A DNA stretch of 64,000 bases. It comes from Pseudomonas sp. GGS8 (GTDB taxonomy: Bacteria; Pseudomonadota; Gammaproteobacteria; Pseudomonadales; Pseudomonadaceae). Within the stretch, counting starts at the first letter, position 1. The number at the start of each line of letters is the position of its first letter. The position numbers and the translations under genes are program-made. This document shows positions 1 through 16,149 of the stretch, piece after piece. The stretch spans positions 4,901,501 to 4,965,500 of the forward strand of contig NZ_JALJWF010000001.1 in assembly GCF_024168645.1 (NCBI RefSeq). Reading direction: 5' to 3'. The notes beneath the pieces are model-generated. The model was given only the letters and a program-made list of their open reading frames with translations. It did no database searches and was not told the DNA's origin.

Positions 1-1014
1 GATGCTGGCGGCCTCGACATTCTGGTTTGTTTGATAAATCGGTACGGCGTTGGCGGGCACCAGACGCCGGCCGGCCGGAGCGGTGGGGTATTCGTCGGCG
101 AACCAGAGGCCCAGGGTCGCTGCGGTACGGCTGTAGGCGGGGTTGAAAAAGATATCGGCGACGTTGTCCAGACCCTTCTGATACATCGCTTGCACTTTGG
201 CCATGTCCGCGGCTGTCGTGGAGTGGGTATTGATCGGCGGGAAGTCGTTGAAAATGCCGTTCTTGTCATAGTAGGTCAGGTAGGTGGAAAACCTGAACAT
301 CAAGCCACGAGCCCCTTGTTGCCTCATCTGCTGTTGAAGCTGACTCAGCAGCGCGGAGTTGCCGATAACCCATTCCAGGTTTTCCTGGGGAAAGCAGGTC
401 TGCCAGGTGGTGGTGACATACTTCAGACCACCGAGGGCCCCCCAATTGAAGTTCAGGAATCGGTCCAGCATCCGGTATTGCCGATTGAGGGTCAGGCCGC
501 ATTTATCATCCCCCAGCTCCAGCTTGTCGAAATACAACGCGGTGAAGGCGTTCTGCCACGGGCTGATGTCCACGAAGCGCGCGGCAGTAGGACTGGCGCT
601 GCCAAAGGGGTTACCGAGCAATTGGTAGTTCTTGCCGACCAGCGCATCCTGGTCGATGTAATTGTTGGCCTGTAGCTCGCCGCCGATGACCACGGAGCGG
701 ATATCTTCGTAGCACACCGTGCCGCAGGCATTGTCGCCAAACAGATCCCACTCTGCGGGAATGTACGGGGTCGGGCTGCCATTGGTCGGCACCATCGGCA
801 CGTAGTCCGGGACGTTATTCACGGGACTGATGACCCAGGGCATCAGCGTGTTGGGGGCGTTCTGGCGCGTGATGTCGTAGAAGTTCACAAACGGCCAGTT
901 AATATCCATGTTGACCGCGTCATAGAGTGGAAATACATCGTTGTTGTTGGCCGTTGGCGGGTTCCAGAACATATGGCCGTTGAGGTAGATGCGGGGGAAA
1001 TTCAATACGCTCAT
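1..1014 (-). CDS. Unknown protein, 3' end cut by window edge
   Basis: The reading frame is open from an ATG at 1014 to the window edge (338 codons), so the C-terminus is missing. I do not recognise the family. The protein has no signal peptide. It is rich in Asn, Pro and aromatic residues; it begins MSVLNFPRIYLNGHMFW and contains runs such as NPPTANNND. It lies 10 bases after the stop of the cytochrome-c-like gene, and an AGGAG-like Shine-Dalgarno precedes the ATG, so it is almost certainly the last visible member of the ebo transcript. The pairing with a cytochrome-like protein suggests a shared redox or substrate-binding job, but this is inference only. The gene is real, since coding character is strong over 1 kb; its function is unknown. 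Confidence 0.8.
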   Translation of the reverse strand, partial: MSVLNFPRIYLNGHMFWNPPTANNNDVFPLYDAVNMDINWPFVNFYDITRQNAPNTLMPWVISPVNNVPDYVPMVPTNGSPTPYIPAEWDLFGDNACGTVCYEDIRSVVIGGELQANNYIDQDALVGKNYQLLGNPFGSASPTAARFVDISPWQNAFTALYFDKLELGDDKCGLTLNRQYRMLDRFLNFNWGALGGLKYVTTTWQTCFPQENLEWVIGNSALLSQLQQQMRQQGARGLMFRFSTYLTYYDKNGIFNDFPPINTHSTTAADMAKVQAMYQKGLDNVADIFFNPAYSRTAATLGLWFADEYPTAPAGRRLVPANAVPIYQTNQNVEAASI

Positions 1015-1024
1015 GTCATGCTCC

Positions 1025-2164
1025 TTAGCGTTGCCACTGGGCGTGTTTCAACGACCAGACAAAATCCAGTTTGTTGTAACCGGCGAAGGCCGAGTTCGGC
1101 AGCGGGGTGGTGGGGTAGACAATGCCGCCCTGTTCTTTCAGGGCGAAATTGAAGTAACCCTTTTGGTTCGAGTAGGCGGCGGTGCCGTGGCAGGCTAGGC
1201 AGGACGAGGTGTTCTGGAAGGCCGATTCCAGCTGGGAGTTGGCCAGCACCTGGGTGATGGGCTGGAATTCGACCCCGATCAGTTCGTACTTCGCCAGAGC
1301 GGGATTAGCGGCCTGAAAGCTGGTATTGACCGTTTTGGCGGCTGGTGTCGGTCCTGTGGTGTTGGTTATCGGGGTGGCCGGCACGGCATTGGTCACGGTG
1401 TACTTACTGTTGTTGACGTTTTCGAAGGTGGTCCAGACCCAGTTGGCGTTCAGTTTGTTGACGACGTGCAAGCCGCTCATTGCGGCATAGCCGACCTTGT
1501 ATTTACCGTCTTGCAGGTAATAGGCCTGGGCGATGTAGTAACCGTCTTTCTCCAGTTTCTGTTTGTAGGTCGCGTCGGAGCCGATCCACAGCCAGGAGGA
1601 TTTCAACTCCCAGGCAATGGGCGGAAACTCCAGATTGCTGGTCAGGGCGGCCTGGCCGTTCATGTTGTAGACCTGCTTCTGCACGATGTAATCGAACGTG
1701 CCCTGGCCCATCAGCAGCTGAAAGCGTACGGGTTTGCCTTTTTCTGTCGCGGGCACCGCTCCGCCCATTTGCAGAATCAAGCCATCGACCTGTTGGGTGG
1801 CTTTGAGGTTATGGAAGGTTCGGGACAGATCCATTCCTAGTGCCTTGGCCTGTGTAACTACCGCGTTCGGGGGTGGCACGGGGGTGCCATAAGGGGCGGG
1901 TTTGGCGCCATTGGGCAGGTAGACCTGGTCGGAGGGTTTCATCGATTCCCACTCGCGGTTGGGGTTCCCCGCGGCAGCGGGCTGGTTCAAGCAGACAAAC
2001 CAGTTCCAGGCCATGGTCTCGGGGCTCTGCGCAAACGCGGCCCGGGTCTTGTCGACGTCTCCTCCAAACTGCAGGAAGTTGCTGCAGTCGAAGGTGTTCG
2101 TGCTCTGAGCCTGAGCCAAACCGGCCAGGGTACTCAGAACTGTTATAGAAATGGCTCGCCGCAT
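1025..2164 (-). CDS. Exported cytochrome-c-like protein of the ebo operon
   Basis: The frame opens further upstream, but the ATG at 2164 is preceded by AAGGAG at good spacing and starts a clear signal peptide (MRRAISITVLSTLAGLAQAQ, cut near residue 20). The mature protein of about 359 residues is therefore periplasmic. It carries one haem-c motif, CLACH, at about residues 322-326, near the C-terminus. The rest has no domain I can name, and the length far exceeds a simple class I cytochrome c, so it resembles the loosely named cytochrome c family proteins. Its start overlaps the end of eboF by 22 bases, which implies translational coupling. It may move electrons for a periplasmic oxidation of the ebo product; that is inference. 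Confidence 0.75.
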   Translation of the reverse strand: MRRAISITVLSTLAGLAQAQSTNTFDCSNFLQFGGDVDKTRAAFAQSPETMAWNWFVCLNQPAAAGNPNREWESMKPSDQVYLPNGAKPAPYGTPVPPPNAVVTQAKALGMDLSRTFHNLKATQQVDGLILQMGGAVPATEKGKPVRFQLLMGQGTFDYIVQKQVYNMNGQAALTSNLEFPPIAWELKSSWLWIGSDATYKQKLEKDGYYIAQAYYLQDGKYKVGYAAMSGLHVVNKLNANWVWTTFENVNNSKYTVTNAVPATPITNTTGPTPAAKTVNTSFQAANPALAKYELIGVEFQPITQVLANSQLESAFQNTSSCLACHGTAAYSNQKGYFNFALKEQGGIVYPTTPLPNSAFAGYNKLDFVWSLKHAQWQR

Positions 2165-3588
2165 GGAAGCTCCTTGGCATTGGCCGGGTCGGTGTGTGGG
2201 TGCCCCAGGAAGTGTTCCAGGAGCAGTTGCTTCACTGCCGTGGCCGCAAGGCACTGCGGCAACGGCAGATCGCAATTGGTGATGAGTAGCGGGCCGGTGT
2301 TCTCGCTGTCGGGCAGGCGGCCATGGCTGCCACGGACCAGGCGGGTGTCCAGCGGAATCAGGTCCATGTAGTAGCGAAAGCCGAGTTTTTTCTGCAGCAG
2401 GCGACGCGCCACTTTCAATTTGGGGAAGCGAATGGCCGGGTCGATGAACAGCTCCAGCGGGTCGTAGCCGGGCTTGCGATGGATGTCCACGGTGCGGGCA
2501 AAGTCGGGTGCCTTGCGATCGTCGAACCAGTAGTAGTAATCGAACCAGTAACCCGGCGCGGCCACGGTCACCAGCTCGCCGCTGCGCGGATGATCCAGTT
2601 GCCAGGCCCGTTGTTCGGCTTTATCCAGCACCTGCTCGATGCCGGGCTGGTGCTGCAACAGCGCTTTGACGCGAGGGATGTCGTACGCCTGCTTCACGTA
2701 GACATGTGCGATCTGATGATCGGCCACGGCAAAGGCCGCGCTGGCGCCGGGGTCGAGCAATTCCCAGGTCAATGATTGGCGCACTTGCAACAAGCCTTCC
2801 GAGCGCAACAACCGGTTGATCGATACGGATTGCTCTACCGCTTCGATCCCATATTCGGACAACAACATCACCGCCGCGCCTTGCTCCTGGGCAAAGGTCA
2901 GCAGGCGACCCACTTCACTGTCGATGGCCCGCACTTCGTCGGCAATCGACGGATGATCGGGGCCCAGTCGCTGCAGGCAGTAGTCGAGATGCGGCAGGTA
3001 GACCAACTGCAAGTCAGGTCGATCGATCTGGAACTCGGCAATGGCGCAGTCGACGATCCAGCGACTCGACGCGATACCGGCCGCCGGGCCCCAGAAACCC
3101 GGAAACGGGAATTCGCCGATCTGCTCCTCGATACGCTCATGCAACGAGGCCGGTGACGAATACAGACCGAACATCTTGCGGCCATCGGCCGGGTAATGAG
3201 GGCGTGGGGTGATGGCGGCATCCACGTCCGCGTACATGTTGTACCACCAGAACAACTGGCTGCAGCGAAACCCGGGGAGCTCGCGCTTGAGCGCCTGCCA
3301 GACCTTTTCACCCTGGATCAGTGCGTTGGGTTGTAGCCAGAAGCGTACTTCGGCCTGGTCGCGGAAATACCAGCCATTGCCGACAATGCCGTGCTCCGAC
3401 GGCGACAGACCGGTCAGGATCGACGCCTGCACCGTCGACGTGACGGCCGGAAACACTGGTTGCAGGCTGGCCATTTTTGCCGTTTTCAGCAGGGCATTGA
3501 TGTGTGGCGTCGCCGGTCCCAGCAGCGCCGGGGTCAGTCCGACCACGTTGATCAGCAGCAGCGGTTGGCGCGGATTTTCAGAGGGCAT
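2143..3588 (-). CDS. eboF: EboF-type alkaline phosphatase/nucleotide pyrophosphatase family protein
   Basis: 481 residues of the type I phosphodiesterase/nucleotide pyrophosphatase superfamily as found in ebo/EDB clusters. Family hallmarks are the VFPAVTSTVQASILTG segment at about residues 44-59, where the nucleophile Thr/Ser lies, followed by SPSEHGIVGNGW. Several usual metal ligands are replaced: the first motif reads INVVGLTP where DG is typical, and SEYG stands where SDHG is typical. From memory the ebo branch shares these changes, so this is a divergent subfamily and not a damaged copy. The start overlaps the eboE stop by 11 bases. Function in metabolite export or modification is inferred from cluster membership; the substrate is unknown. 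Confidence 0.85.
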   Translation of the reverse strand: MPSENPRQPLLLINVVGLTPALLGPATPHINALLKTAKMASLQPVFPAVTSTVQASILTGLSPSEHGIVGNGWYFRDQAEVRFWLQPNALIQGEKVWQALKRELPGFRCSQLFWWYNMYADVDAAITPRPHYPADGRKMFGLYSSPASLHERIEEQIGEFPFPGFWGPAAGIASSRWIVDCAIAEFQIDRPDLQLVYLPHLDYCLQRLGPDHPSIADEVRAIDSEVGRLLTFAQEQGAAVMLLSEYGIEAVEQSVSINRLLRSEGLLQVRQSLTWELLDPGASAAFAVADHQIAHVYVKQAYDIPRVKALLQHQPGIEQVLDKAEQRAWQLDHPRSGELVTVAAPGYWFDYYYWFDDRKAPDFARTVDIHRKPGYDPLELFIDPAIRFPKLKVARRLLQKKLGFRYYMDLIPLDTRLVRGSHGRLPDSENTGPLLITNCDLPLPQCLAATAVKQLLLEHFLGHPHTDPANAKELPCGEPFL

Positions 3589-4810
3589 CGGCGTACGCCT
3601 CCCGCACTTGGGGGTGCAGCAATTGGCGCTGGCGCAATTGGTCTTCTACCCAGTGCAGTTCCGCGGCGATTCCCTGCAGTTGGGCGTGCTCGGTGTCGGG
3701 CCGCAGTTGCGCGGGCAGGACGCCCCAGCTGTAGGTTTCCACTTCCAGCACCGGACGAAAATCCCCATGGTCTGCGAGAAAGTCGAAGGTTTGCGACAGG
3801 GCGATCTGACTGCCGCTGAGTTCGGGCAGCAGCAAGTGATCGCTAAACAGCGGAATGTGGAAATGAATCCGCAGTTCGGGATACTGCCCCAGGTTGTTGG
3901 CGCAATCGTCGAGTGCTGCGGGAAGGTCGGCCCAGCCCGATAACTGCGCCTGCGCATCGCGGGCTTTGACTTGATGCAGGTAGGTGGTTTCGGCGAAATC
4001 GCTCAAGGTCTTGAGCACGTGTTCGCGTCGCTTGGCGTCTTGAGTGGGCAGGCGACAAATCAGCGCGTTGGACAACTGAATCTTGCCGACAGGTACTCGG
4101 GCCTGGCGCAGCTTTTCCAGCGACTGATAGCAGTGTTCGAAAACCACAGCCTGATGGCAGACATCAAAACACAGCGCCAGATAGTCATGGTGCGGGTCGC
4201 TGGCTTGGTAGCGGTGGAAGAAGGCGATCGCCTGGTCAGTGTTTTCCAGCACGCAGTCCGGCTCCATCTCCAGGCAGAACACGATCTTCTTACCGGTCTC
4301 CCGATGCAGCCTGGCCAGCGAAGCCGTGAGTTGGCGCAGCAGATGTTCGGCTTGCTGTTGTAACTGCGGGCTCCAGCTGGCGGCATAGCCCAGCGGCACG
4401 GTGGAAATCACGCCCTGGCGACAGTCCGGCGGCAGGGCATCGGCGAGGATCCGCGCCAGATTCAGGCTATATGCCAGCCGTTCAGGCTCGGCCCAACTGG
4501 GCAGATAGACCTCGGCTTTCACCGCGCCCTGATGAAATTTCCCATAAGGAAAACCGTTAAGCGACGTCAGCCGTAGCCCGCTGCGTTGCAGCAGACTGAG
4601 AAAGTCCGCGCGAGCCGACGGCTGTTGCAAATCGGCCGCGGCGAGGGCGCTGATCCACAGCCCACTGTCTTGCTCGTTCAGGCCGCGCAGGGTGCGCACG
4701 CCCTGAAAATGCCGCTCGATGGATGACCGTAGCCCAGCCAGGTCACGGGTCGGGTGCACGTTGCTGCAATAACCGACCTGCGCGGCAGCCCAACCCGTGC
4801 CGGCACTCAT
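3578..4810 (-). CDS. eboE: Metabolite traffic protein EboE (xylose-isomerase-like TIM barrel)
   Basis: 410 residues. The frame opens at 4855, but I choose the ATG at 4810 because it forms an ATGA overlap with the eboB stop, the coupling used throughout this operon. The sequence matches the EboE family: QVGYCSNVHPTRDLAGL near the N-terminus, LTSLNGFPYGKFH, then FCLEMEPDCVLE and CFDVCHQAV, acidic and histidine residues placed like the metal ligands of sugar-isomerase TIM barrels. In Nostoc, ebo genes are needed to move a scytonemin precursor to the periplasm; the chemical step done by EboE is not known. No membrane segment or signal peptide is seen. Confidence 0.9.
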   Translation of the reverse strand: MSAGTGWAAAQVGYCSNVHPTRDLAGLRSSIERHFQGVRTLRGLNEQDSGLWISALAAADLQQPSARADFLSLLQRSGLRLTSLNGFPYGKFHQGAVKAEVYLPSWAEPERLAYSLNLARILADALPPDCRQGVISTVPLGYAASWSPQLQQQAEHLLRQLTASLARLHRETGKKIVFCLEMEPDCVLENTDQAIAFFHRYQASDPHHDYLALCFDVCHQAVVFEHCYQSLEKLRQARVPVGKIQLSNALICRLPTQDAKRREHVLKTLSDFAETTYLHQVKARDAQAQLSGWADLPAALDDCANNLGQYPELRIHFHIPLFSDHLLLPELSGSQIALSQTFDFLADHGDFRPVLEVETYSWGVLPAQLRPDTEHAQLQGIAAELHWVEDQLRQRQLLHPQVREAYADAL

Positions 4811-5691
4811 TTGATCACCGGTTCCTGGCCACGCAGGGCAGAGTTGTCCTGCCACTGCCGACGCTGGTCGATGGGCAGCGGGGTGCTGACCAGAGCCTTG
4901 TCCAGTTGGCCGCTTTGGGCAAAAAAGTCTACGGGGTTGTGGAACAGCACCTGTTCGACCTGGGCTTCACTGAAGCCTGCAGCCAGCATCGCTTCGCCGG
5001 TTTTCGGCACCTTGAGCGGGTCGCTGATGCCCCAGTCGGCGGCGCTGTTGACCACCATTTTCTCAGTGCCGTACTCCTTCAACAGGGCGACCATGCGCTG
5101 TTCCGACATCTTGGTGTTGGGGTAGATCGAATGGCCGCGCCAGCAGTCGCTGTCCAGCACCAGCGGCAGGGTCAGTTCGTTGAGGTGGTCGATGATCACC
5201 AGGTGCTCGGCAATCCCGACTTCGCGAATCACCGCCAGGGTGCGTTTGGTGCCACCGATCTTGTCGCGGTGTGGGGTGTGCACCAGCACCGGCAAATTGA
5301 ATTGTTTGGCCAGCTCCAGTTGAGCGGCGAGGAAGCGATCTTCCTCGGGGGTGATGTCGTCGTAGCCGATTTCGCCAACCGCCACGACGCCGTCTTTTAC
5401 CAGGTAGCGCGGCAGAATCTCCAGCACTTCATTGGCCACCGACAGATCATTGGCTTCCTTGGGGTTGAGGCCGATGGTGCAGAAGTGATGGATGCCGAAC
5501 ATGCTGGCGCGAAAGCGTTCCCAGCCCAACAGAGTGTCGAAGTAGTCGATGAAACTGCCGACACTGGTCCTGGCCTGGCCCTGCCAGAAGGCCGGTTCGA
5601 TTACCCCGGTGATGCCGGCGGCGGCCATGTTCTGGTAGTCATCGGTGGTACGGCTGACCATATGAATATGCGGGTCGAAGTACTTGAGCAT
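4807..5691 (-). CDS. eboB: TatD-family metal hydrolase EboB
   Basis: 294 residues of the TatD/amidohydrolase family. The N-terminal metal motif is DPHIHM (residues 6-11). Further ligand-like residues are in GIHHF, GEIGYDD, HTPHRDK and DHLNE, so the dinuclear metal site looks intact. This is the usual EboB member of the ebo cluster; its substrate is unknown. The ATG at 5691 has a GAGG-type Shine-Dalgarno. It begins 36 bases after eboA, the largest gap in the core operon, and its stop is ATGA-coupled to eboE. Cytoplasmic location is expected because no signal peptide is present. Confidence 0.88.
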   Translation of the reverse strand: MLKYFDPHIHMVSRTTDDYQNMAAAGITGVIEPAFWQGQARTSVGSFIDYFDTLLGWERFRASMFGIHHFCTIGLNPKEANDLSVANEVLEILPRYLVKDGVVAVGEIGYDDITPEEDRFLAAQLELAKQFNLPVLVHTPHRDKIGGTKRTLAVIREVGIAEHLVIIDHLNELTLPLVLDSDCWRGHSIYPNTKMSEQRMVALLKEYGTEKMVVNSAADWGISDPLKVPKTGEAMLAAGFSEAQVEQVLFHNPVDFFAQSGQLDKALVSTPLPIDQRRQWQDNSALRGQEPVIK

Positions 5692-5727
5692 CGTAAAACC
5701 TCGTCAAGGAAAAGCAGTCGTTGAGTG

Positions 5728-6501
5728 TCAGTTCAGTGAGGTGCCAGCCAGGTGCTCGTGCCACTCCGGCGGCAAGCGTTGCTGCTGATTCAGCCCGGCC
5801 AGACGCTGGTGTTGCGCCGGGCTGAGCAGATCGAAGGCGATCACTCGGGGCAGCCCGGCGGACACCGTTCGTTCGGCAGCAAGCTGTTCGTCCAGCAGGT
5901 CGAGGGCCAACTGGTTGAGGGTGACGCTGTGTCGTTGCGTCAGGCCGATCAGGCGGCGTACGTCGAGCCCCATGCCCAGCGCCTTGAGCACCAATTGATG
6001 GAAGGCCCGTTCGCTGTAATGGCGCGATGGGTAAAGGGTGTCCAGCGCGAGGGCGGCAAACACCTGGCTGTTGCTGGTACGCCCGGCCTGCAGGGCCAGC
6101 TCTACGCAGAGCCCACGGCTGTCGAGCCAGTCGAGGGCCTTCAGGGTGACGATTTTTTCTTGGTCGTCGCCCCACAGAAACAGTTGGCGCAGCAAGGGCA
6201 GTTGCCCGGCGAGGGGCTGTTGCTCCAGGACCTGAGCGAGCAACAATGCCCGCGCCAGTTGGACGTTGTTCCAGCCGGGATTAAGCGGCAGCGGCGGCTG
6301 CTTGAGGTTGCGCTTGCACTGGCTGCTCAACAGCGCCGCGGTATTGGCGTCCGGGCGTTGGGCAAGCCGCTCCTGTGCCTGGCGCCACCACTGCAGCTCG
6401 GCGTCATCGAGCTGTTGCGTGAGGGCCTGGTGTTGTTCGGCGAGGCAGTCGTGGCGCATATCGAGTGCCGTCAGTGGCGACGCAGTGACGTCCATGTTCA
6501 T
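5728..6501 (-). CDS. eboA: EboA domain protein
   Basis: 257 residues. The frame continues upstream to 6555, but the ATG at 6501 overlaps the eboC stop as ATGA, matching the other junctions, so I start there (MNMDVTASPL). The protein is alpha-helical and rich in Leu, Gln and Ala, with the EboA-type stretch LNPGWNNVQLARALLL followed by LFLWGDDQEKIVTLKALDWLD. I see no catalytic motif, signal peptide or membrane span. EboA is a conserved core component of ebo/EDB operons of unknown biochemical role. Identification rests mainly on neighbourhood and on this helical domain. Confidence 0.85.
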   Translation of the reverse strand: MNMDVTASPLTALDMRHDCLAEQHQALTQQLDDAELQWWRQAQERLAQRPDANTAALLSSQCKRNLKQPPLPLNPGWNNVQLARALLLAQVLEQQPLAGQLPLLRQLFLWGDDQEKIVTLKALDWLDSRGLCVELALQAGRTSNSQVFAALALDTLYPSRHYSERAFHQLVLKALGMGLDVRRLIGLTQRHSVTLNQLALDLLDEQLAAERTVSAGLPRVIAFDLLSPAQHQRLAGLNQQQRLPPEWHEHLAGTSLN

Positions 6502-7388
6502 GTCGGTTTGATCCAGCGCTGGAAGTGTGGAAGCAGGAAAAACACCAGAATGCATAACAGGCTGCCCAGTGGCTGATTGGCCACGGCCAACACCAGGGCA
6601 TCGAACAATGGCAGAGCCGCCAGGCCAGCGCCGATGAAGGCGCGGACCTGCCGTTGCTGCGGGTGGGCCAAGTGGTGCCAGTAATGCCAGCCCAGCCAGC
6701 CAAGCCAGAGCAGTAGCACCGGCCAGAACCAGGCGTTGTCGGAATAGATCGTCAGGGCCAGCGGGCTCAACATCAGCAGGAGAGGCAGGCGGCTGAGCAA
6801 CTGGTTATCGTGTTCCTGACGAGCCAGGTAGGTCAGGCCGCTGATGTAGACGCCAAGCAAAATGGCGCACAGCCAGATCGGCTCCGGCGGCACCGCCAGG
6901 CTGGCCGCCGCCGTGAGGTAGAGGGCCGAGCGGCAGGCGCCCATCAACCAGACACTGTGGGCGTATTTCTTGTGCAGCAGGTTGTAGCCGAGGATGCAAC
7001 CCACCAGCAGGGTGGCGCTGCCCAGCAACCAGTGCGGTTGCTCGATCAGCCGGCTCAGGCCCAGTACCGAGGCGGCGGCCAGCATCAGCAACAGCGCAGT
7101 GGCCAGCCCCACTTGTTGGCGGCTGACCAGACCCAAAGTGATGGGGCGCGGGTTGTGGTGCTGTTGGTCCCAGTCGGCGTCCAGCAGGTCATTCAATAAC
7201 ATACCGGCCAAATACAGCAGCGACAGCGCGGCCAGCAGCAGGATCCACACCAGCGACGACGGCGGCGCCAGGGCCCCGGCGCTGCTGGCGAGCAGGGCGG
7301 CGGCCAGGGTGTTGGTCCACACCGTGGGCAGGTTGGATACCCGGCCGAGGGTCATCCAGGTTTTCAGGTTCAGCGGTGTCTGGCTCAT
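6498..7388 (-). CDS. eboC: UbiA-like membrane prenyltransferase EboC
   Basis: 296 residues with about eight hydrophobic spans, of the UbiA superfamily. The first Asp-rich motif is NDLLDADWD (about residues 66-74), a variant of the NxxxDxxxD prenyl-diphosphate site. The second Asp-rich motif of UbiA enzymes is weak: the second half has GLTYLARQEHD in its place. This fits EboC, which probably attaches a prenyl group, or a related lipid-linked group, to the molecule handled by the operon. The start shares ATGA with the eboD fusion stop, and its own stop is ATGA-coupled to eboA. The substrate is unknown. Confidence 0.87.
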   Translation of the reverse strand: MSQTPLNLKTWMTLGRVSNLPTVWTNTLAAALLASSAGALAPPSSLVWILLLAALSLLYLAGMLLNDLLDADWDQQHHNPRPITLGLVSRQQVGLATALLLMLAAASVLGLSRLIEQPHWLLGSATLLVGCILGYNLLHKKYAHSVWLMGACRSALYLTAAASLAVPPEPIWLCAILLGVYISGLTYLARQEHDNQLLSRLPLLLMLSPLALTIYSDNAWFWPVLLLWLGWLGWHYWHHLAHPQQRQVRAFIGAGLAALPLFDALVLAVANQPLGSLLCILVFFLLPHFQRWIKPT

Positions 7389-9259
7389 TGCGCGCAGCCC
7401 TCGCTGAGGGTGAGCGCGGGGTCGATGCGGGTGGACAGCCGTTGCAGCGCCTGCTCCATCCGCGCGGCATCGATTTCATGCAGGTCCACCGATTCGCCGA
7501 TCCGGCTGAGCATGGGGATGGAGAGTTTCCCGCCCAGGTGCTGACGGAATTCCTCCAGCCCGAGCAGAACCAGCGAGCGTCCCCGCGCATCTTTCAAGGT
7601 CAGTTCCGGCGGGCACAGGTTGAAGCCGAGCTTGAGCAGCAGGTTCAGAACCCGTTCGGTGTCGCCATCGCTCAACAGTCCCAGGGCATTGGCATAGAGT
7701 CCATCCAGGGCGATGCCCACCGCCACGGCTTCACCATGGCGCAGTCGGTGCTGGCTGAGGTTTTCCAGTTTGTGTGCCGCCCAGTGCCCGTAATCCAGTG
7801 GCCGTCCGTTACCGCGTTCGAAGGGGTCGCCGGCGCCGGTGATGTGCGCCAGGTGCAGTTCGGCGCAGCGGCGAATAGCATATCGACTGGCCGAGTGATC
7901 GAAGTGGGCGAGGGCGTCGGCCTGTAGCTCCATCCATTGGAAGAAGGCCTGGTCCTTGATCAGCGCCACCTTGACTGCCTCGGCCAGCCCGGCGATCTGG
8001 TCGCGGCGGGTAAGGCTGGTCAGCAGCTGAAAGTCGTTAATCACCGCGGTGGCGGGGTAGAAGGCCCCCAGCAGGTTTTTCTGGCCGAAGGCATTGATGC
8101 CGTTTTTCACACCGATGCCGGCGTCGTTCTGGGCCAGCACAGTGCTCGGGATGCGGATCAGGCGAATGCCACGGTGGAAGGTGGCACAGGCGTAGCCCAC
8201 CGCATCCAGCACCGCGCCGCCGCCCAAGGCCAGGACATAACAATGTCGGTCCAGCCCATGGTGCAACATGTCGCTGTAGAGCTGTTGCAACACCTGCGAG
8301 TCCTTGCTCAGTTCGCCGGCCGGCACCGCAATGGGTGCGGCCTGCAAGTGCAGGTCCGCCGCATGCGCGGCAAAGTAGGCATCGATCTGATCCAACAGGT
8401 GTGGGGCGCTTTGCAGCAGTTGTTCATCGGCGAACACCAGCACCGTCACCGGGCCGCGATGCTGGGCGGTGAGCTGACGGTGCAGACACGGATTGGACGG
8501 CTCGAACAGGTGATCGGTGAACACCACCGGGTAGTCGTAACGGACGTCGAAGCGCCCTCGCAGGGGGCCATCCGTGTCGTGTTTGCGCAAGGTCTTGAAC
8601 AGGCTGTACCCGGCGATAAACAGCCCCGGCAACACCATGCTGGCGAGGAGCGTCACCAGCAGCGCATTCTGCTCGACGAGGTAGATACCGATGGCACTGT
8701 AGGCCAGTGCCAGGCCGGCATTGGCCAAGGTGGTAACCCACAAAAATGCGCGCAGCGGATAACGCTGCATCCCGGCGGCCACCACTGAAGTTTCCGCCAA
8801 TACCGGCACGCCGCGCAGGCAGATCAACGACAGCGTACCCAGCTTGTATGCCAGCTGCCCCGGCTGGCGCTGATGCAGGCCCAGGCGACCGGACAGCAGA
8901 CGAAAGTAACCGGCCCCCAGCGCATAACCCAGCCCAGCGCCCAGGCACAGCCCCATGAAAATCACCAGATAGCCACCAACACCGCCCAGCATGGCCACGG
9001 CCAGCAGCGCGACCATGCTCGACGGCACTGGCAGCACCACGTCCAGCGCGAGCAGGGCGATCAGCAGCAGTGCCAGGTTGAGTTTCTGGGTGGGTGTGGA
9101 GGGCTGGTACAGGTTGAGATGGGTCAGGAAGTCCTGGATCTGTTGTTCGAACAACAGAAAACTGGCGATCACCAGGCCTGAGAAGCAAAGCAGTGACAGC
9201 CAGAAATGTCCGGCCGGCCCCTTTTGCGAGAACGCACGATACCCATGGCTGCGCTTCAT
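7385..9259 (-). CDS. eboD: VTT/DedA-like membrane domain fused to EboD 3-dehydroquinate synthase-like cyclase
   Basis: 624 residues from the ATG at 9259, which has an AGAGGGA Shine-Dalgarno; a TTG lies one codon earlier. Residues about 20-220 form a polytopic VTT (SNARE-associated, DedA-like) domain with VLPVPSS and LRGVPVLAETSVVAAG. Residues about 235-600 are a sugar-phosphate cyclase of the dehydroquinate synthase family: LALGGGAVLDAVGYACA for NAD binding, then AEAVK, HWAAHKLE and RHGEAVAVG, so the Zn ligands (Glu, His, His) and key Lys appear intact. EboD is normally a stand-alone cyclase; here it is tied to the membrane, upstream of UbiA-like EboC. First gene of the operon. The ring product is unknown. 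Confidence 0.88.
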   Translation of the reverse strand: MKRSHGYRAFSQKGPAGHFWLSLLCFSGLVIASFLLFEQQIQDFLTHLNLYQPSTPTQKLNLALLLIALLALDVVLPVPSSMVALLAVAMLGGVGGYLVIFMGLCLGAGLGYALGAGYFRLLSGRLGLHQRQPGQLAYKLGTLSLICLRGVPVLAETSVVAAGMQRYPLRAFLWVTTLANAGLALAYSAIGIYLVEQNALLVTLLASMVLPGLFIAGYSLFKTLRKHDTDGPLRGRFDVRYDYPVVFTDHLFEPSNPCLHRQLTAQHRGPVTVLVFADEQLLQSAPHLLDQIDAYFAAHAADLHLQAAPIAVPAGELSKDSQVLQQLYSDMLHHGLDRHCYVLALGGGAVLDAVGYACATFHRGIRLIRIPSTVLAQNDAGIGVKNGINAFGQKNLLGAFYPATAVINDFQLLTSLTRRDQIAGLAEAVKVALIKDQAFFQWMELQADALAHFDHSASRYAIRRCAELHLAHITGAGDPFERGNGRPLDYGHWAAHKLENLSQHRLRHGEAVAVGIALDGLYANALGLLSDGDTERVLNLLLKLGFNLCPPELTLKDARGRSLVLLGLEEFRQHLGGKLSIPMLSRIGESVDLHEIDAARMEQALQRLSTRIDPALTLSEGCAQ

Positions 9260-9712
9260 CAAGCATCCCTCTTTGTTGTTATGACTGATTCCGTGTCAGT
9301 AGTGATAAGCAGCGGCTGGTCGGTTTTAGATCAATAGACTCTCTCGCCTGAGGGGCTGGTTTATGTACGGTTTGGTTACGCCTGTAGAGATAGTTCTGAA
9401 CTTAGACGGTCGTTGTGTTTTTGCAAGGCGACCTGATGGCAATCTGATTTTTTTACCCGCGGCAGCTGCTACGCAAGTGCATCGCGGCGACGGGTGCCAC
9501 TGAGTCGATGTTAAAAAATGTTATTTTAAAAAAACACTTCACATAATCTGTTCATTGGTGGATTATCTGCTCAACCAGTGTCAAGCGATCGTAGCTGCCA
9601 TGGTGTTGGGCGATCTGCTGGCCATGCCGCCGGTGCCCACCTCTACATCGCGGCCTCGTCACCTGCGCTTTGTCGGCGTGGAACAGGTCGTTGCTTCCCT
9701 CAGGAGTACCCC
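9260..9712. promoter_or_regulatory. Divergent promoter region between ebo and tetronate operons
   Basis: No gene is seen in these 453 bases. The middle, about 9509-9550, is strongly AT-rich, unlike its surroundings. ATAATC at 9543-9548 and GATTAT at 9561-9566 make an inverted repeat with a 12-base gap, enclosing TGTTCATTGGTG. It lies about 150 bases before ltnD and is a candidate DeoR operator. The ltnD Shine-Dalgarno CAGGAG is at 9701-9706. On the other side, the eboD leader carries AGGGATG across its Shine-Dalgarno, a GGA motif that could be an Rsm target. Both assignments are inferences from pattern only. Confidence 0.5.
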
Positions 9713-10618
9713 ATGAATAACAAGAATGTCGGTGTTGTCGGTCTGGGCGCGATGGGGCTGGGCATTGCCCGCTCACTGTTGCGCAGTGGTTTCAATGTGC
9801 ATGCCTGTGATGTGCGTGCGCAGGTGACTGAACAGTTTGCCGGGGAGGGCGGCGTGGCATGTTCTTCACCCGCACAGATGGCCGCGGCGTGCGACGTGAT
9901 CATTACCGTGGTGGTGAACGCCGAGCAGACCGAAACCGTATTGTTTGGCGAGGGTGGCGCCGTCGCAGCGTTGCGCCCTGGCAGTTTGGTGATCGGTTGC
10001 GCCACCGTGGCCCCGACCTATGCTGTCGACTTGGGCCAGCGCCTGACCGCCCAAGGCTTGCTGTATCTGGATGCCCCGATCTCCGGTGGCGCGGCCAAGG
10101 CGGCCGCTGGTGAAATGACCATGATGACGTCCGGCCCGGCCGACGCTTACGCCAAGGCCGAAGCCGTCCTGGCAGGCATGGCCGGTAAGGTTTATCGCCT
10201 GGGCGACAGCCATGGCCTGGGTTCCAAGGTCAAGATCATCAACCAGCTGCTCGCCGGGGTGCACATCGCTGCTTCTGCCGAAGCCATGGCGTTGGGCCTG
10301 CGTGAAGGGGTCGATGCCGATGCACTTTACGAAGTGATCACCCACAGCGCCGGTAATTCCTGGATGTTCGAAAACCGCGTGCCGCACATTCTCAAGGCCG
10401 ATTACACGCCGTTGTCCGCGGTGGATATTTTCGTCAAGGACCTGGGCCTGGTGCTGGATACCGCCCGGGCCAGCAAATTTCCGCTGCCGCTGTCGGCCAC
10501 CGCTCACCAGATGTTCATGCAGGCTTCCAGTGCCGGCTTCGGGCGTGAGGACGACTCGGCGGTGATCAAGATTTTCCCCGGCATCGAGTTGCCGACTGCC
10601 AAGACCGAGCCGGTTTGA
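9713..10618 (+). CDS. ltnD: L-threonate dehydrogenase
   Basis: 301 residues of the beta-hydroxyacid dehydrogenase family. The ATG at 9713 follows CAGGAG and gives the normal N-terminal Rossmann motif GVVGLGAMGLGIARSLL. The substrate signature LDAPISGGAAKAAAG and the catalytic Lys in GSKVKIINQLLAG are present. By family and by the partner genes otnK, otnC and otnI it should oxidise L-threonate at C2 with NAD+. It heads a five-gene operon and is followed after 10 bases by otnK. A 3-hydroxyisobutyrate or tartronate semialdehyde reductase could look similar, but the neighbours decide the call. Confidence 0.88.
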   Translation: MNNKNVGVVGLGAMGLGIARSLLRSGFNVHACDVRAQVTEQFAGEGGVACSSPAQMAAACDVIITVVVNAEQTETVLFGEGGAVAALRPGSLVIGCATVAPTYAVDLGQRLTAQGLLYLDAPISGGAAKAAAGEMTMMTSGPADAYAKAEAVLAGMAGKVYRLGDSHGLGSKVKIINQLLAGVHIAASAEAMALGLREGVDADALYEVITHSAGNSWMFENRVPHILKADYTPLSAVDIFVKDLGLVLDTARASKFPLPLSATAHQMFMQASSAGFGREDDSAVIKIFPGIELPTAKTEPV

Positions 10619-10628
10619 GGAACGCCCA

Positions 10629-11921
10629 ATGAACACAACCCCTGCACGGCCCTTGCTGGGCTGCATCGCCGACGATTTCACCGGCGCCACGGACCTTGCC
10701 AACATGCTGGTGCGCGGCGGTATGCGCACCGTGCAAAGCATCGGCATTCCGCGCAGCGAAGTGGCGGCCGGGCTTGATGCCGATGCGATCGTCATCGCCC
10801 TGAAGTCGCGTACCCTTCCAGTCGCCGAAGCAGTCGAGCAGTCCCTCGCCGCGCTGGCCTGGCTGCGTGAGCAAGGTTGCGAACAGATTTTCTTCAAGTA
10901 CTGCTCGACGTTCGATTCCACCGGCGCCGGCAATATCGGCCAGGTCAGCGAAGCACTGCTGGCGGCGCTGGGCAGCGACTTCACCCTGGCGTGCCCGGCG
11001 TTTCCGGAGAATGGCCGGACAATTTTTCGCGGCCACTTGTTCGTGCAGGATCAGCTGTTGAGCGAGTCGGGCATGCAGCATCACCCGCTGACGCCGATGA
11101 CCGATGCCAACCTGGTTCGGGTGCTGCAATCGCAGACGCGTCTGAACGTTGGCCTGTTGCGTTACGACACCATCGCCCAAGGGGCCGAGCAAGTACGCGG
11201 GCGCATCGCCGAGCTGCGGGCCCAAGGTGTCGGCATGGCGATTGCCGATGCTTTGTCGGACCAGGATCTGTACACCCTCGGCACCGCCTGCGCCGACTTA
11301 CCGTTGCTCACCGGTGGTTCGGGGCTGGCCCTGGGCTTGCCGGAAAACTTCCGTCGCGCCGGAAAACTGCGGGACCTCGATGCCTCGAAACTCCCGGCAG
11401 TATCGGGCGGTGAAGTGGTGTTGGCCGGCAGCGCGTCGATCGCTACCAATGGGCAAGTGGCGGCCTGGCTCGAAACCGGTCGTCCAGCGCTACGGATTGA
11501 TCCGTTGGCCCTGGCGGCGGGTGAACCGGTGGTTGCCCAGGCCGTGGCGTTCGCCAAGGGCCATGAAGAAACCGTATTGATCTACGCCACCAGTTCGCCG
11601 GATGAGGTCAAGGCGGTGCAACAGCAGCTCGGTGTCGAACAGGCCGGCAGCCTGGTGGAAAACGCGTTTGGCGAAATAGCCCAAGGCTTGCGTCAAAGCG
11701 GCGTGCGGCGCTTCGTGATCGCCGGCGGTGAAACTTCGGGCGCGGTGGTTCAGGCGCTGGGTGTGCAACTGCTGCAGATCGGCGCGCAGATCGATCCGGG
11801 TGTGCCGGCGACGGTCAGCAGCACCGATGAGCCTCTGGCGCTGGCGCTCAAGTCGGGCAACTTCGGTGCTCGGGATTTCTTCAGCAAAGCCTTGAAGCAA
11901 CTGGCGGAGGGTGTTTCGTGA
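10629..11921 (+). CDS. otnK: 3-oxo-tetronate kinase (DUF1537/four-carbon acid sugar kinase)
   Basis: 430 residues of the four-carbon acid sugar kinase family. The N-terminal substrate domain starts LLGCIADDFTGATDLANMLV, the hallmark of this family. The C-terminal nucleotide-binding domain has FVIAGGETSGAVVQALG and ends with SGNFGARDFF. OtnK phosphorylates 3-oxo-tetronate to its 4-phosphate in threonate and erythronate catabolism. The stop overlaps the start of otnC by four bases (GTGA). Cytoplasmic. The family is well established and the operon composition is exactly that of the described tetronate pathway. Confidence 0.93.
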   Translation: MNTTPARPLLGCIADDFTGATDLANMLVRGGMRTVQSIGIPRSEVAAGLDADAIVIALKSRTLPVAEAVEQSLAALAWLREQGCEQIFFKYCSTFDSTGAGNIGQVSEALLAALGSDFTLACPAFPENGRTIFRGHLFVQDQLLSESGMQHHPLTPMTDANLVRVLQSQTRLNVGLLRYDTIAQGAEQVRGRIAELRAQGVGMAIADALSDQDLYTLGTACADLPLLTGGSGLALGLPENFRRAGKLRDLDASKLPAVSGGEVVLAGSASIATNGQVAAWLETGRPALRIDPLALAAGEPVVAQAVAFAKGHEETVLIYATSSPDEVKAVQQQLGVEQAGSLVENAFGEIAQGLRQSGVRRFVIAGGETSGAVVQALGVQLLQIGAQIDPGVPATVSSTDEPLALALKSGNFGARDFFSKALKQLAEGVS

Positions 11922-12556
11922 GTAATGAAAATGCCTTGCGCGAAGAAATCTGCGACGTTGGCCGCAGCCTTTATGAGCGCGGTTACACCGTCGGCAGCGC
12001 CGGCAATATCAGCGCACGGCTGGATGACGGCTGGCTGATCACGCCGACTGACGTGTGCCTCGGTCGCCTCGATCCGGCGACCATCGCCAAGGTCAATCTG
12101 GCCGGTGAATGGGTCTCCGGTGACAAGCCGTCGAAGACATTGGCGCTGCATCGCCAGGTCTACGACCGCAACCCGAGTGTCGGTGGCGTGGTGCATACCC
12201 ACTCCACTCATCTGGTGGCATTGACCCTGGCGGGTGTCTGGCAGCCGAACGACATCCTGCCGCCACTGACGCCGTATCAGGTGATGAAAGTCGGGCATAT
12301 CCCGTTGATCAGCTACCAGCGTCCCGGCTCGCCAAAGGTTGCCGAACAGGTCGCACAACTGGCCAACAGCGTTCGCGGCGTGATGCTCGAACGGCTGGGG
12401 CCGGTGGTCTGGGAGAGTTCGGTGTCCAGAGCCAGCTACGCCCTGGAAGAACTCGAAGAAACCGCGCGGTTGTGGCTGATGAGCAATCCCAAGCCCGACC
12501 CGCTCGACCAGACAGCACTGGACGAGCTGCGAGCGGCCTTCGGCGCGCAGTGGTAG
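11918..12556 (+). CDS. otnC: 3-oxo-tetronate 4-phosphate decarboxylase
   Basis: 212 residues of the class II aldolase/adducin family. It starts at GTG 11918, coupled to otnK. The zinc-binding HTHSTH motif at about residues 88-93 and the N-terminal GYTVGSAGNISARLDDG phosphate-binding loop are intact. The enzyme decarboxylates 3-oxo-tetronate 4-phosphate to dihydroxyacetone phosphate, feeding glycolysis. Fuculose-phosphate aldolase relatives look alike; the pairing with otnK decides the call. A 204-base gap with no gene follows before the permease. Confidence 0.9.
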   Translation: MSNENALREEICDVGRSLYERGYTVGSAGNISARLDDGWLITPTDVCLGRLDPATIAKVNLAGEWVSGDKPSKTLALHRQVYDRNPSVGGVVHTHSTHLVALTLAGVWQPNDILPPLTPYQVMKVGHIPLISYQRPGSPKVAEQVAQLANSVRGVMLERLGPVVWESSVSRASYALEELEETARLWLMSNPKPDPLDQTALDELRAAFGAQW

Positions 12557-12760
12557 GGCGCTGACTTTTCTTCAAACGATAGAACACGAAAGACCGATAA
12601 AGCGGGCCCTGTTCGGGAGACGTGCAGCGACTCCCACGACCCCGGCTTGCCTGAAAAATACAATAACAAGAGGACATCCAGGCATGACTCACCTTCACTG
12701 CGGCATTTTCAGACCCGGTTGCAGCACCCTTGTGTTCAGCCGGCGCGGAGGGCTTGTGAA

Positions 12761-14221
12761 ATGAGCCCGTTAATCTTGATGGTTACCGCGGGGCTAGGGA
12801 TCGCTCTGTTGTTGTTTCTGGTGCTCAAGTACAAGTTCCAGCCGTTCGTGGCGTTGATGCTGGTGAGCATTCTGGTGGCGCTGGTGGCCGGGGTGAAGCC
12901 GGCTGATCTGGTCGCCACCATCGAAGGCGGCATGGGCAAGACCCTGGGTCATATCGCGATCATCATTGCCCTGGGCGCGATGATCGGGCGGATCATCGAA
13001 CTCTCCGGCGGCGCCGAGGCGCTGGCCAAGACGCTGATCAGCCGTTTCGGCAATCGACGCACGCCGCTGGCGCTGACGATTGCCGGGTTCATGGTCGGAG
13101 TACCGGTGTTCTTCGAGGTCGGCGTGATCATCCTGATGCCGCTGGCCTATGGCGTCGCTCGCAGTGCGCGCAAGCCGCTGTTGGTGTTCGCGTTGCCGAT
13201 GTGTGCGGCGTTGCTGACTGTACACGCCTTCCTGCCGCCGCATCCGGGGGCGGTGGCCGCTGCCAGCCAGTTGGGCGCCGACCTCGGTCGTGTGTTGATG
13301 TTCGGCCTGCCGTTGACCGCGTTCCTTTGCTATGTCGGCTACCGCGTGGCCGGGCGTATGACCCGTCGGGTGTACCCGATGACCGACGATATCCGCGCCG
13401 AAGTCTATGGCCCGCATGTCACCAACGAGGATCTGGCCGCCTGGGCCAATGGCAACGGCAAGAGCGCCGAACGAGCGGCCGTGGCCGCATCGCACATGGG
13501 CCTGGAAGAGGCTACCAGCAGCATTGTCTCGAAGTTGCCGCCGGCGCCAGCACCGGGATTCGGGATGATCGTCAGCCTGATCGCGTTACCGATTATTTTG
13601 ATTCTGCTGGGGACACTGTCCAACTCGTTGCTGCCGGCCGACTCGGTCCTGCGCGGCATCATGACCGTACTCGGTGCGCCATTGGTGGCGTTGCTGATTG
13701 ATACCTTGCTGTGTGCCTGGTTGCTGGGCTCGCGTCGGGGCTGGAGCCGTACTCAGGTGTCTGACGTGATCGGTTCGGCCTTGCCGGGTGTGGCCATGGT
13801 GATTCTGATTGCCGGCGCCGGCGGTGTGTTCGGCAAGGTGCTGGTGGACACCGGCATCGGCGCCGTCGTCTCCGATTTGCTGCGCACCACCGGTCTGCCG
13901 GTGCTCGCGCTGGGCTTTCTGCTGACCATGCTGCTGCGTGCGGTTCAGGGTTCGACCACGGTGGCGTTGGTGACCACTGCCGGCATCATCAGCCCGCTGA
14001 TCGCGACCCTCAACCTCACGGCGAACCACATGGCGCTGCTGTGCCTGGCCATGGGCGGTGGCGGGTTGGCCATGTCCCACATCAATGATGCCGGTTACTG
14101 GATCTTCACCAAACTGTCCGGGCTGAACGTGGCCGACGGCCTGCGCACCTGGACCGTGCTGACCACCTTGCTCGGCACGTTGGGTTTCGGTATTACCTTG
14201 CTGATCTGGCCGTTTGTCTAA
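12761..14221 (+). CDS. GntP-family permease, probable tetronate importer
   Basis: 486 residues from the ATG at 12761, which has a GCGGAG Shine-Dalgarno; the frame opens earlier, at 12647, but that extension is not membrane-like. About twelve hydrophobic spans and the gluconate-permease hallmarks are seen: GGMGKTLGHIAIIIALGAMIG, GVPVFFEVGVIILMPL, HAFLPPHPG and RAVQGSTTVALVTTAG. GntP proteins carry gluconate and related sugar acids by proton symport. Its place between otnC and otnI makes L-threonate or a related four-carbon acid the likely substrate. The 204 bases upstream (12557-12760) hold no gene I can support. Confidence 0.87.
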   Translation: MSPLILMVTAGLGIALLLFLVLKYKFQPFVALMLVSILVALVAGVKPADLVATIEGGMGKTLGHIAIIIALGAMIGRIIELSGGAEALAKTLISRFGNRRTPLALTIAGFMVGVPVFFEVGVIILMPLAYGVARSARKPLLVFALPMCAALLTVHAFLPPHPGAVAAASQLGADLGRVLMFGLPLTAFLCYVGYRVAGRMTRRVYPMTDDIRAEVYGPHVTNEDLAAWANGNGKSAERAAVAASHMGLEEATSSIVSKLPPAPAPGFGMIVSLIALPIILILLGTLSNSLLPADSVLRGIMTVLGAPLVALLIDTLLCAWLLGSRRGWSRTQVSDVIGSALPGVAMVILIAGAGGVFGKVLVDTGIGAVVSDLLRTTGLPVLALGFLLTMLLRAVQGSTTVALVTTAGIISPLIATLNLTANHMALLCLAMGGGGLAMSHINDAGYWIFTKLSGLNVADGLRTWTVLTTLLGTLGFGITLLIWPFV

Positions 14222-15029: not shown

Positions 15030-15848
15030 TTACAGGTTGTTGTCGGAGGGCAACAGCAGTTCGACGCCTTGCTTGCGGATGCTATCAGCCGCGGCAGGAG
15101 TCAGCGCGTCGTCGCTGAGGATGATGTCGAACTGCTCGAGCCCGGCGATCCGGTACATGCTGAATGTGCCGTACTTCGAACTGCTGGCCACCAGCACCAC
15201 TTGTGAGGCCGATTGCATCGCGACTTGCTTGACCTCCACCTTCAGCGCCGAAGGCGTGGTGAGGCCGCGACGCAAATCCCAGGAGCTGGTGGAGATGAAG
15301 GCGATATCGGTGACGATCTGGCGCAAGGTGGCCACCGCCAGCCCGCCCACGCACGATTGATTCGAATGATCCAACTGCCCGCCAGTGTGAATCACCGTGA
15401 CATGGGGCGCATCGATCAGCGCCTGGACAATCCCGAAGTCGTTGGTCACCACGGTCATGCCGGACAGCGCCTTGATATACGGGACGATTTCCAGGGTGCT
15501 CGTCCCTGCATCCAGATAAACCGTCATATCAGCATGCAGCAGGCGTGCGGCCAGTTTTGCCATCGCCTGCTTCTGCGGCAACTCGACCACCGCCTTGAAC
15601 TGATGGCTGGGCTCGCTGTGGAGCTGGCTGGCGATTCGCACGCCGCCAGTGACCGAGTAAGCGCGGCCTTCCTGTTCGAGCAGCGCGATATCGCGGCGGA
15701 TAGTCATGTGCGAACAATCGAACATTTCCATCAACTGATGAACGCTTAGCACCTGATGCTTGCGCAATTGGCGCAGCATCAATTCACGGCGCTGTTCAGG
15801 AATCATCGGTGCGCCGCTGTCGGCGGCGATGTCCTTTTGACTAGGCAT
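15030..15848 (-). CDS. DeoR-family transcriptional regulator of the tetronate operon
   Basis: 272 residues from the ATG at 15848, which has TGGAG upstream; the frame runs on to 15896. The N-terminal helix-turn-helix is typical of DeoR: RRELMLRQLRKHQVLSVHQL, MFDCSHMTIRRDIALLEQEG. The C-terminal sugar-phosphate sensor has TVYLDAGTSTLEIV and ALIDAPHVTVIHTGG. Such proteins are usually repressors released by a sugar phosphate made in the pathway they control. Convergent orientation right behind otnI points to the ltnD-otnI operon as target. It could also act on the operon starting at 16150, because an inverted repeat lies 118 bases beyond its start. Confidence 0.85.
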   Translation of the reverse strand: MPSQKDIAADSGAPMIPEQRRELMLRQLRKHQVLSVHQLMEMFDCSHMTIRRDIALLEQEGRAYSVTGGVRIASQLHSEPSHQFKAVVELPQKQAMAKLAARLLHADMTVYLDAGTSTLEIVPYIKALSGMTVVTNDFGIVQALIDAPHVTVIHTGGQLDHSNQSCVGGLAVATLRQIVTDIAFISTSSWDLRRGLTTPSALKVEVKQVAMQSASQVVLVASSSKYGTFSMYRIAGLEQFDIILSDDALTPAAADSIRKQGVELLLPSDNNL

Positions 15849-15965
15849 TCGGGCTCCAGAGTGAAGAAATCCGCAGACAAGGAAAGCGGGACCCACATAG
15901 TAGCGAATCTACAGTAAAGGAACGAGTTGTGCGGATCACTGTTCTGGTGGCGGCAGCCTCAATTC

Positions 15966-15989
15966 TTAGTTCATGATTTTCTGAACTAA
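15966..15989. promoter_or_regulatory. Perfect inverted repeat, candidate operator
   Basis: TTAGTTCA and TGAACTAA are exact inverted 8-base arms around an 8-base spacer. It sits in the 301-base gap between the DeoR gene and the divergent TIM-barrel gene, which holds no other feature I can support. A repressor site for either gene is likely. The half-site TTCA recurs in the region before ltnD. The binding protein is inferred, not shown. Confidence 0.55.
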
Positions 15990-16149
15990 CTATTTGCTGC
16001 AGCCTATTCAATCGCTTGTCGCCATAGCCTTAGGATTCGTCACACGGGACCGCAGCCAGCAGAGCAGCGGCCCGCAGCACCCCCTTTCGACTGCCCAGTA
16101 ACGCCGTCAGCCCAAACAGCTGGAGGCCTGACGCAGCCGAGAGGAATGC

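Follow-up and report, generated by a model that had tools for sequence, protein, structure and literature searches.

Does the ebo cluster of Pseudomonas end with eboF, or does it continue into genes that say something of its chemistry? The question is raised by the locus at the start of a 64,000-nucleotide stretch of Pseudomonas sp. GGS8 (G000:C1:4901501-4965500, hereafter the window), in which the cluster genes all lie on the minus strand (Table 1). A preliminary description had proposed an ebo/EDB operon of six overlapping core genes, eboD-C-A-B-E-F, extended by a haem-motif gene (here cyt1) and one of unknown identity. The coordinates and junctions agree with this core: ATGA overlaps were found at eboD/eboC, eboC/eboA and eboB/eboE, with a gap of 36 nucleotides (nt) between eboA and eboB and an 11 nt overlap between eboE and eboF. 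They also bear out the 22 nt overlap of cyt1 with eboF and the 10 nt gap to the next gene. That gene, vioBL1, stands where it was placed and encodes a recognisable protein, a homologue of the N-terminal half of VioB. The two-gene extension is present and was drawn too short, as four further genes follow vioBL1 in the same direction: sec3 (307 amino acids, aa), cyt2 (436 aa, with one CxxCH motif), vioBL2 (602 aa) and a ScyE-like gene (351 aa). The cluster consists of nine conserved genes (eboDCABEF, cyt1, vioBL1 and the ScyE-like gene) and an optional trio (sec3, cyt2 and vioBL2). The extension of this known cluster type is genuine and conserved, and it has been under-described.

Conservation was examined in 199 Pseudomonas genomes drawn from a larger group, from which 25 ebo loci were fetched, with gene starts chosen by script. 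The sampled genomes are akin to each other and the counts are not independent events. EboE scored above its cut-off in 25 of the 199 genomes. Full-length cyt1 (E 5e-139 or better) was found in exactly these 25, the other 174 all lacking it; weaker relatives of cyt1 (E 2.4e-10 or worse) occurred in 14 sampled genomes without EboE. The vioBL1 and ScyE-like proteins were detected in the same 25 genomes and in none of the 174. Since their profiles were built from those 25 loci, the informative part of this result is the absence from the other genomes. Within the genus, the linkage of the first two added genes to eboF was strongly upheld by this count (25 of 25 ebo genomes), and no related ebo genome lacking these genes was seen among them. 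At the level of loci, cyt1, vioBL1 and the ScyE-like gene were each present in all 25, and eboC in 24 plus a remnant in L069. The eboF/cyt1 overlap was likewise universal (22 nt in 18 loci, 31 nt in seven), as was a cyt1/vioBL1 gap of 4-12 nt. The trio was found in 18 loci, each with a cyt2/vioBL2 gap of 3 nt, and was missing from two groups that stand apart in the ebo tree, one formed by L069 and L070 and the other by L074, L075, L076, L078 and L084.

A haem gene lay immediately 5′ of a VioB-half gene in all 43 Pseudomonas cases (25 vioBL1 and 18 vioBL2). Profile comparison with hhalign indicated paralogy both of cyt1 and cyt2 (probability 99.7; 25 cyt1 against 16 of the 18 cyt2 sequences) and of vioBL1 and vioBL2 (probability 98.9; 25 against 14 of the 18), and the unit of haem gene and VioB-half was probably duplicated together, as a pair. 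Mean protein divergence was about twofold higher in the added core genes (0.31) than in eboB, eboE and eboF (0.15), and the distances of the two sets were correlated (Mantel r 0.80, equalled by none of 2000 permutations). The ebo and added-gene trees differed in places; L069 and L070, for example, were sisters by ebo and separate by the added genes. This mismatch suggests some swapping of the extension between strains. Near relatives of vioBL1 or cyt1 were also recovered under the labels Pantoea sp. Cy-639, Paucimonas metagenome-assembled genome (MAG) and Rheinheimera MAG (P0075, P0179, P0214 and P0224). Either these genes have been transferred out of the genus or the labels are wrong and the source is Pseudomonas.

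Every one of the 25 vioBL1 proteins matched the VioB model TIGR04492, with E 3.3e-11 at best and far under its equivalog cut-off; the window-strain protein scored 28.1 bits and the cut-off is 1250 bits. As a reference we took VioB from a Chromobacterium subtsugae genome (1701.5 bits), using residues 1-620 as the N-terminal half. Positions 1-426 of the vioBL1 profile aligned with VioB 1-379 (hhalign probability 96.6, E 5.5e-10), and the ScyE-like profile, used as a control, gave a probability of 0.1. Past this region the homology of vioBL1 with VioB comes from a nine-sequence MAFFT alignment only, in which an MPxTRDLS-type motif at the end of the VioB N-terminal half was common to the halves, vioBL2 included. 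Unlike VioB, vioBL1 and vioBL2 lack a ferritin-like half, the gene of a CxxCH protein adjoining them instead. No Pfam match to the ferritin-like family PF12902 was obtained for vioBL1 (submitted as two overlapping pieces) or vioBL2, and the family was absent from 24 of the 25 Pseudomonas ebo genomes. By eye, no signal peptide was seen in the VioB-halves.

The cyt1 protein carries a single CxxCH motif near its C-terminus, at residue 322 in the window strain, and this motif is kept in all 25 relatives. The N-terminus resembles a signal peptide by eye in the consensus of the 25. The predicted fold aligned with 127-144 residues of cytochrome P460/c′-beta chains, the Protein Data Bank titles of which mention complexes with nitric oxide (NO) and hydroxylamine (NH2OH). 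Cytochromes P460 and c′-beta are haem c proteins with an open haem site and are not of the electron-carrier type; c′-beta proteins bind gases and P460 oxidises hydroxylamine. An exported-looking protein with one CxxCH near the C-terminus resembles this superfamily, of which we take a single C-terminal CxxCH to be a mark. However, cyt1 has 379 aa compared with 135-159 residues in the listed chains, and it has no P460 match in Pfam: 46 members were compared at E values up to 1, and the families matched did not include P460. A wider single-CxxCH family of about 460-500 aa, without a clear Pfam family, was noticed at G000:C1:1634137-1634535 and in L056-L060; it occurs in Pseudomonas lacking ebo and is nearer to cyt2 than to cyt1.

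The ebo proteins themselves were assigned as follows. EboE far exceeded the curated cut-off of NF035939 (TIM_EboE; 407.2 bits, cut-off 250), and homologues of EboA, B, C, D and F were all present, with EboA_domain, TatD, UbiA, DHQ synthase and Phosphodiest above cut-off. EboA matched EboA_domain (9.8e-39) and stayed under the cut-off of EboA_family (71 bits, cut-off 320; both NCBIfam). EboC matched Pfam UbiA (6.1e-12) and fell under the cut-off of the NCBIfam EboC equivalog (83.9 bits, cut-off 250). EboB and EboF matched Pfam TatD_DNase (3e-12) and Phosphodiest (3.3e-63), respectively. EboD scored 635.7 bits against NCBIfam PRK06203, above the cut-off, and contained the Pfam domains VTT_dom (1.8e-10), DHQ_synthase (5.9e-35) and DHQS_C (3.4e-31). 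Its length exceeds expectation because of the N-terminal VTT domain, a fusion that the preliminary description had not mentioned. The fusion was found in 23 of the 25 Pseudomonas loci; VTT gave no BLAST match in 82 other loci among the matches listed, in 57 of 81 of which eboD itself was matched. The two exceptions in Pseudomonas were L069 and L070. In L069 eboC is also cut to an in-frame remnant of 66 aa, so this cluster may be decaying or misassembled.

The last conserved protein is related to ScyD and ScyE. In the window strain it matched NF033206 at 1.6e-14 and 54.2 bits, below the cut-off of 80, and the model matched all 20 proteins scanned from the 25 loci (best E 3.8e-19). Weak matches to strictosidine-synthase and NHL models were also obtained. 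At the chosen starts no signal peptide was seen by eye.

Outside Pseudomonas the proposed linkage did not hold. EboE was found in 3 of 398 sampled Pseudomonadota genomes and the vioBL1 profile in two, both Pseudomonas. Scanning named genomes for EboB gave at least 80 loci, mainly Planctomycetota and Bacteroidota by title, which with L089 (genome G382) made 81 for comparison (55 at least 19 kilobases (kb) long and 13 below 12 kb). Among the matches listed for these 81 loci, the cyt1, cyt2 and ScyE-like profiles had none, and VioB-half profiles matched four, one in Trinickia and three in Chromobacterium; L089 and the other 76 matched no added-gene profile. Thus, ebo in general appears independent of these genes. 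The Trinickia and Chromobacterium VioB-halves (about 660 aa) aligned with VioB 1-581 (probability 89.1) and with vioBL1 (97.4), and each is followed directly by a ferritin-like gene, recognised by Pfam as PF12902 in two of the four (5e-64 and 3e-44), one of which the remaining two resemble at 99% and 55% identity. The sec3 gene is present as well in two of the three Chromobacterium loci, about 60% identical to that of Pseudomonas. A second-type VioB-half profile matched 3 of 369 Pseudomonadota genomes. Two were Pseudomonas, and the third (G350) holds a sec3/VioB-half/ferritin-like module (L177, G350:C6 7269-12080) without EboE. Just upstream of this module lie a TonB-type receptor and a gene that encodes a VTT domain on its own. 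The module can therefore occur where ebo is missing, and it again has a VTT protein for a neighbour. In all five cases found outside the genus the VioB-half lies immediately 5′ of a ferritin-like gene (PF12902 by Pfam in three, by BLAST in two). The Trinickia locus (L102) also contains an antibiotic-biosynthesis-monooxygenase/glyoxalase-type gene at 15457-16248, between eboC and the VioB-half. The only Pseudomonas ebo genome with PF12902 (G079) carries it elsewhere, beside a small gene akin to this Trinickia gene and another neighbour that is presumably a GMC-type oxidoreductase.

One of the closest known systems is the cluster named EDB in P. fluorescens NZI7 (Burlinson et al. 2013), known here from published descriptions alone. 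It shares with the present cluster a full ebo set and non-ebo open reading frames (ORFs), some of which bear signal peptides according to Klicki et al. 2018 (PMC6282210); given these, the extension is not wholly new. EDB has been linked to grazing (PMC6282210, PMC4406715). Insertions in eboA, eboD or eboE are described as rendering NZI7 edible, and by the same account the repellent was not found in the supernatant (PMC6282210). In Nostoc, ebo mutants are reported to fail in scytonemin production, which was interpreted as a failure to deliver the monomer into the periplasm; a cyclitol-headed lipid carrier was proposed (Klicki et al. 2018, PMC6282210). The scytonemin-associated ebo genes of Nostoc punctiforme encode the same EboA-F families, and the present locus also holds a ScyD/ScyE-family relative. 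Unlike the Nostoc cluster, it adds VioB-halves and CxxCH proteins and has VTT fused to EboD; no ScyA, ScyB or ScyC was noticed among its genes.

The preliminary description had suggested that the exported molecule undergoes a periplasmic redox step. The haem motif, the signal-like N-terminus and a predicted fold resembling P460/c′-beta make such a step plausible. A wholly periplasmic pathway is not borne out, as the VioB-halves and the ScyE-like protein appear to lack signal peptides and just part of the pathway would be periplasmic. Judging by N-termini that look signal-like by eye, cyt1, cyt2 and sec3 would be in the periplasm, so the cluster looks split between two compartments with Ebo in between. 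We tentatively suggest, as possible rather than probable, that the whole is an EDB-type export-and-finishing cluster. In the cytoplasm, the VioB-halves would bind an aromatic precursor and hold it in the right orientation; by analogy with VioB, this precursor would probably be of the amino-acid-derived arylpyruvate or imine type. EboC and EboD would make a prenylated carrier, and with the VTT domain fused to EboD the Ebo proteins would take the intermediate through the inner membrane. Since DedA-type proteins act as flippases for lipid carriers, the VTT domain fits a lipid-carrier model. In the periplasm, the P460/c′-beta-like haem proteins would oxidise or couple the intermediate. This role may fall to the ferritin-like half in VioB itself, and also in Chromobacterium and Trinickia, where the VioB type is split over a pair of genes. 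We would expect a product that remains with the cell and possibly repels grazers, the effect put forward for NZI7 EDB. The narrower version, in which Ebo is the transport arm of a split VioB-like oxidative coupling, a P460-fold haem c protein replaces the ferritin-like half and the product is a cell-bound anti-grazer aromatic dimer, seems to us distinctly unlikely. Violacein itself is described as toxic to Caenorhabditis elegans, with avoidance coming only after learning (PMC4935850).

Alternatively, the pathway could end with the ebo product itself, a membrane lipid or lipid carrier of the prenylated cyclitol type, which the haem proteins would oxidise, with the VioB-halves as non-catalytic scaffolds. 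The families of EboC and EboD and the published prenyl-cyclitol proposals (PMC6282210, PMC5133447) argue for it, as do reports that EboC relatives farnesylate quinoline acids (PMC9235831), and the VioB-halves lack a ferritin-like half that is also missing elsewhere in 24 of the 25 genomes. We nevertheless consider it rather unlikely, because it does not explain why VioB-halves are linked to ebo time and again (in Pseudomonas, Chromobacterium and Trinickia), nor why they are paired with the gene of a ferritin-like or haem protein. Another explanation is that the haem/VioB-half pairs serve a separate, co-regulated function, for example as periplasmic binders of a gas or of a compound such as nitric oxide or peroxide. 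Gas binding gives no reason for an adjoining VioB-half, and the overlap of cyt1 with eboF in all 25 loci and the exact co-occurrence of the added genes with ebo in 25 of 25 also weigh against it; these points make it doubtful, despite the ligands of the P460/c′-beta proteins and the weaker cyt1 relatives in 14 genomes without EboE.

That the added genes are hitch-hikers, fixed once in the ancestor of the Pseudomonas cluster and retained through linkage only, would suit the lack of haem-gene and ScyE-like matches in the 81 other loci (among those listed) and the way their distances track those of eboB, eboE and eboF. It is weakened by full-length copies in every locus despite the divergence of 0.31, by the universal haem motif and by the absence of the trio from two separate lineages of the ebo tree where the core three are absent from none, and we regard it as highly improbable. 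Overall, the earlier interpretation is sharpened and partly supported, its chemistry being a proposal. The ties of ebo to VioB-half relatives in three genera, joined in Pseudomonas by a tie to a ScyE-like protein, point to aromatic oxidative chemistry divided between two compartments. They offer testable hints on the chemistry of ebo, a system found across bacteria and algal plastids, so that a vague export role becomes testable gene by gene, and they supply candidate genes for the nematode repellent of EDB strains.

An ANGGANG motif, which we take to be the RsmA/E-site consensus, covers the eboD ribosome-binding site in all 25 loci and is a possible Gac/Rsm site. In the 40 nt that precede eboB, cyt1 and vioBL1 it occurred in none of the 25 loci, and ahead of the ScyE-like gene in one; in the trio it was found in the same region of cyt2 in 7 of 18 loci, of vioBL2 in 12 and of sec3 in none. 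The conserved motif at the eboD start would suit the GacS control reported for the EDB cluster of NZI7 (PMC4406715).

Table 1. Coordinates of the cluster features, as window positions unless a contig is given
Feature	Position	Strand	Remarks
eboD	7385-9259	-	624 aa; VTT (DedA-type) membrane domain N-terminal to 3-dehydroquinate-synthase-like sugar-phosphate cyclase
VTT part of eboD	8585-9259	-	about residues 1-225, boundary placed by us
eboC	6498-7388	-	UbiA-family prenyltransferase
eboA	5728-6501	-	NCBIfam EboA_domain
eboB	4807-5691	-	TatD-like metallohydrolase
eboE	3578-4810	-	TIM-barrel protein, NCBIfam TIM_EboE
eboF	2143-3588	-	type I phosphodiesterase/nucleotide pyrophosphatase family
cyt1 (haem-motif gene)	1025-2164	-	379 aa
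CLACH haem c motif codons of cyt1	1187-1201	-	residues 322-326
vioBL1	1-1014 in window; full gene G000:C1:4900142-4902514	-	790 aa, homologue of VioB N-terminal half
sec3, cyt2, vioBL2, ScyE-like gene	G000:C1:4894913-4900068, past window edge	-	same direction as vioBL1
ANGGANG motif	9264-9271	-	over eboD ribosome-binding site

The ScyE-like gene ends at C1:4894913 and is followed on the opposite strand by what, from their ORFs, we take to be acetoin-catabolism-like genes. On the other side of the cluster, window positions 9713-14218 (plus strand) hold an ordinary sugar-acid catabolic set of L-threonate dehydrogenase, 3-oxo-tetronate kinase, 3-oxo-tetronate-4-phosphate decarboxylase and a GntP-family transporter.

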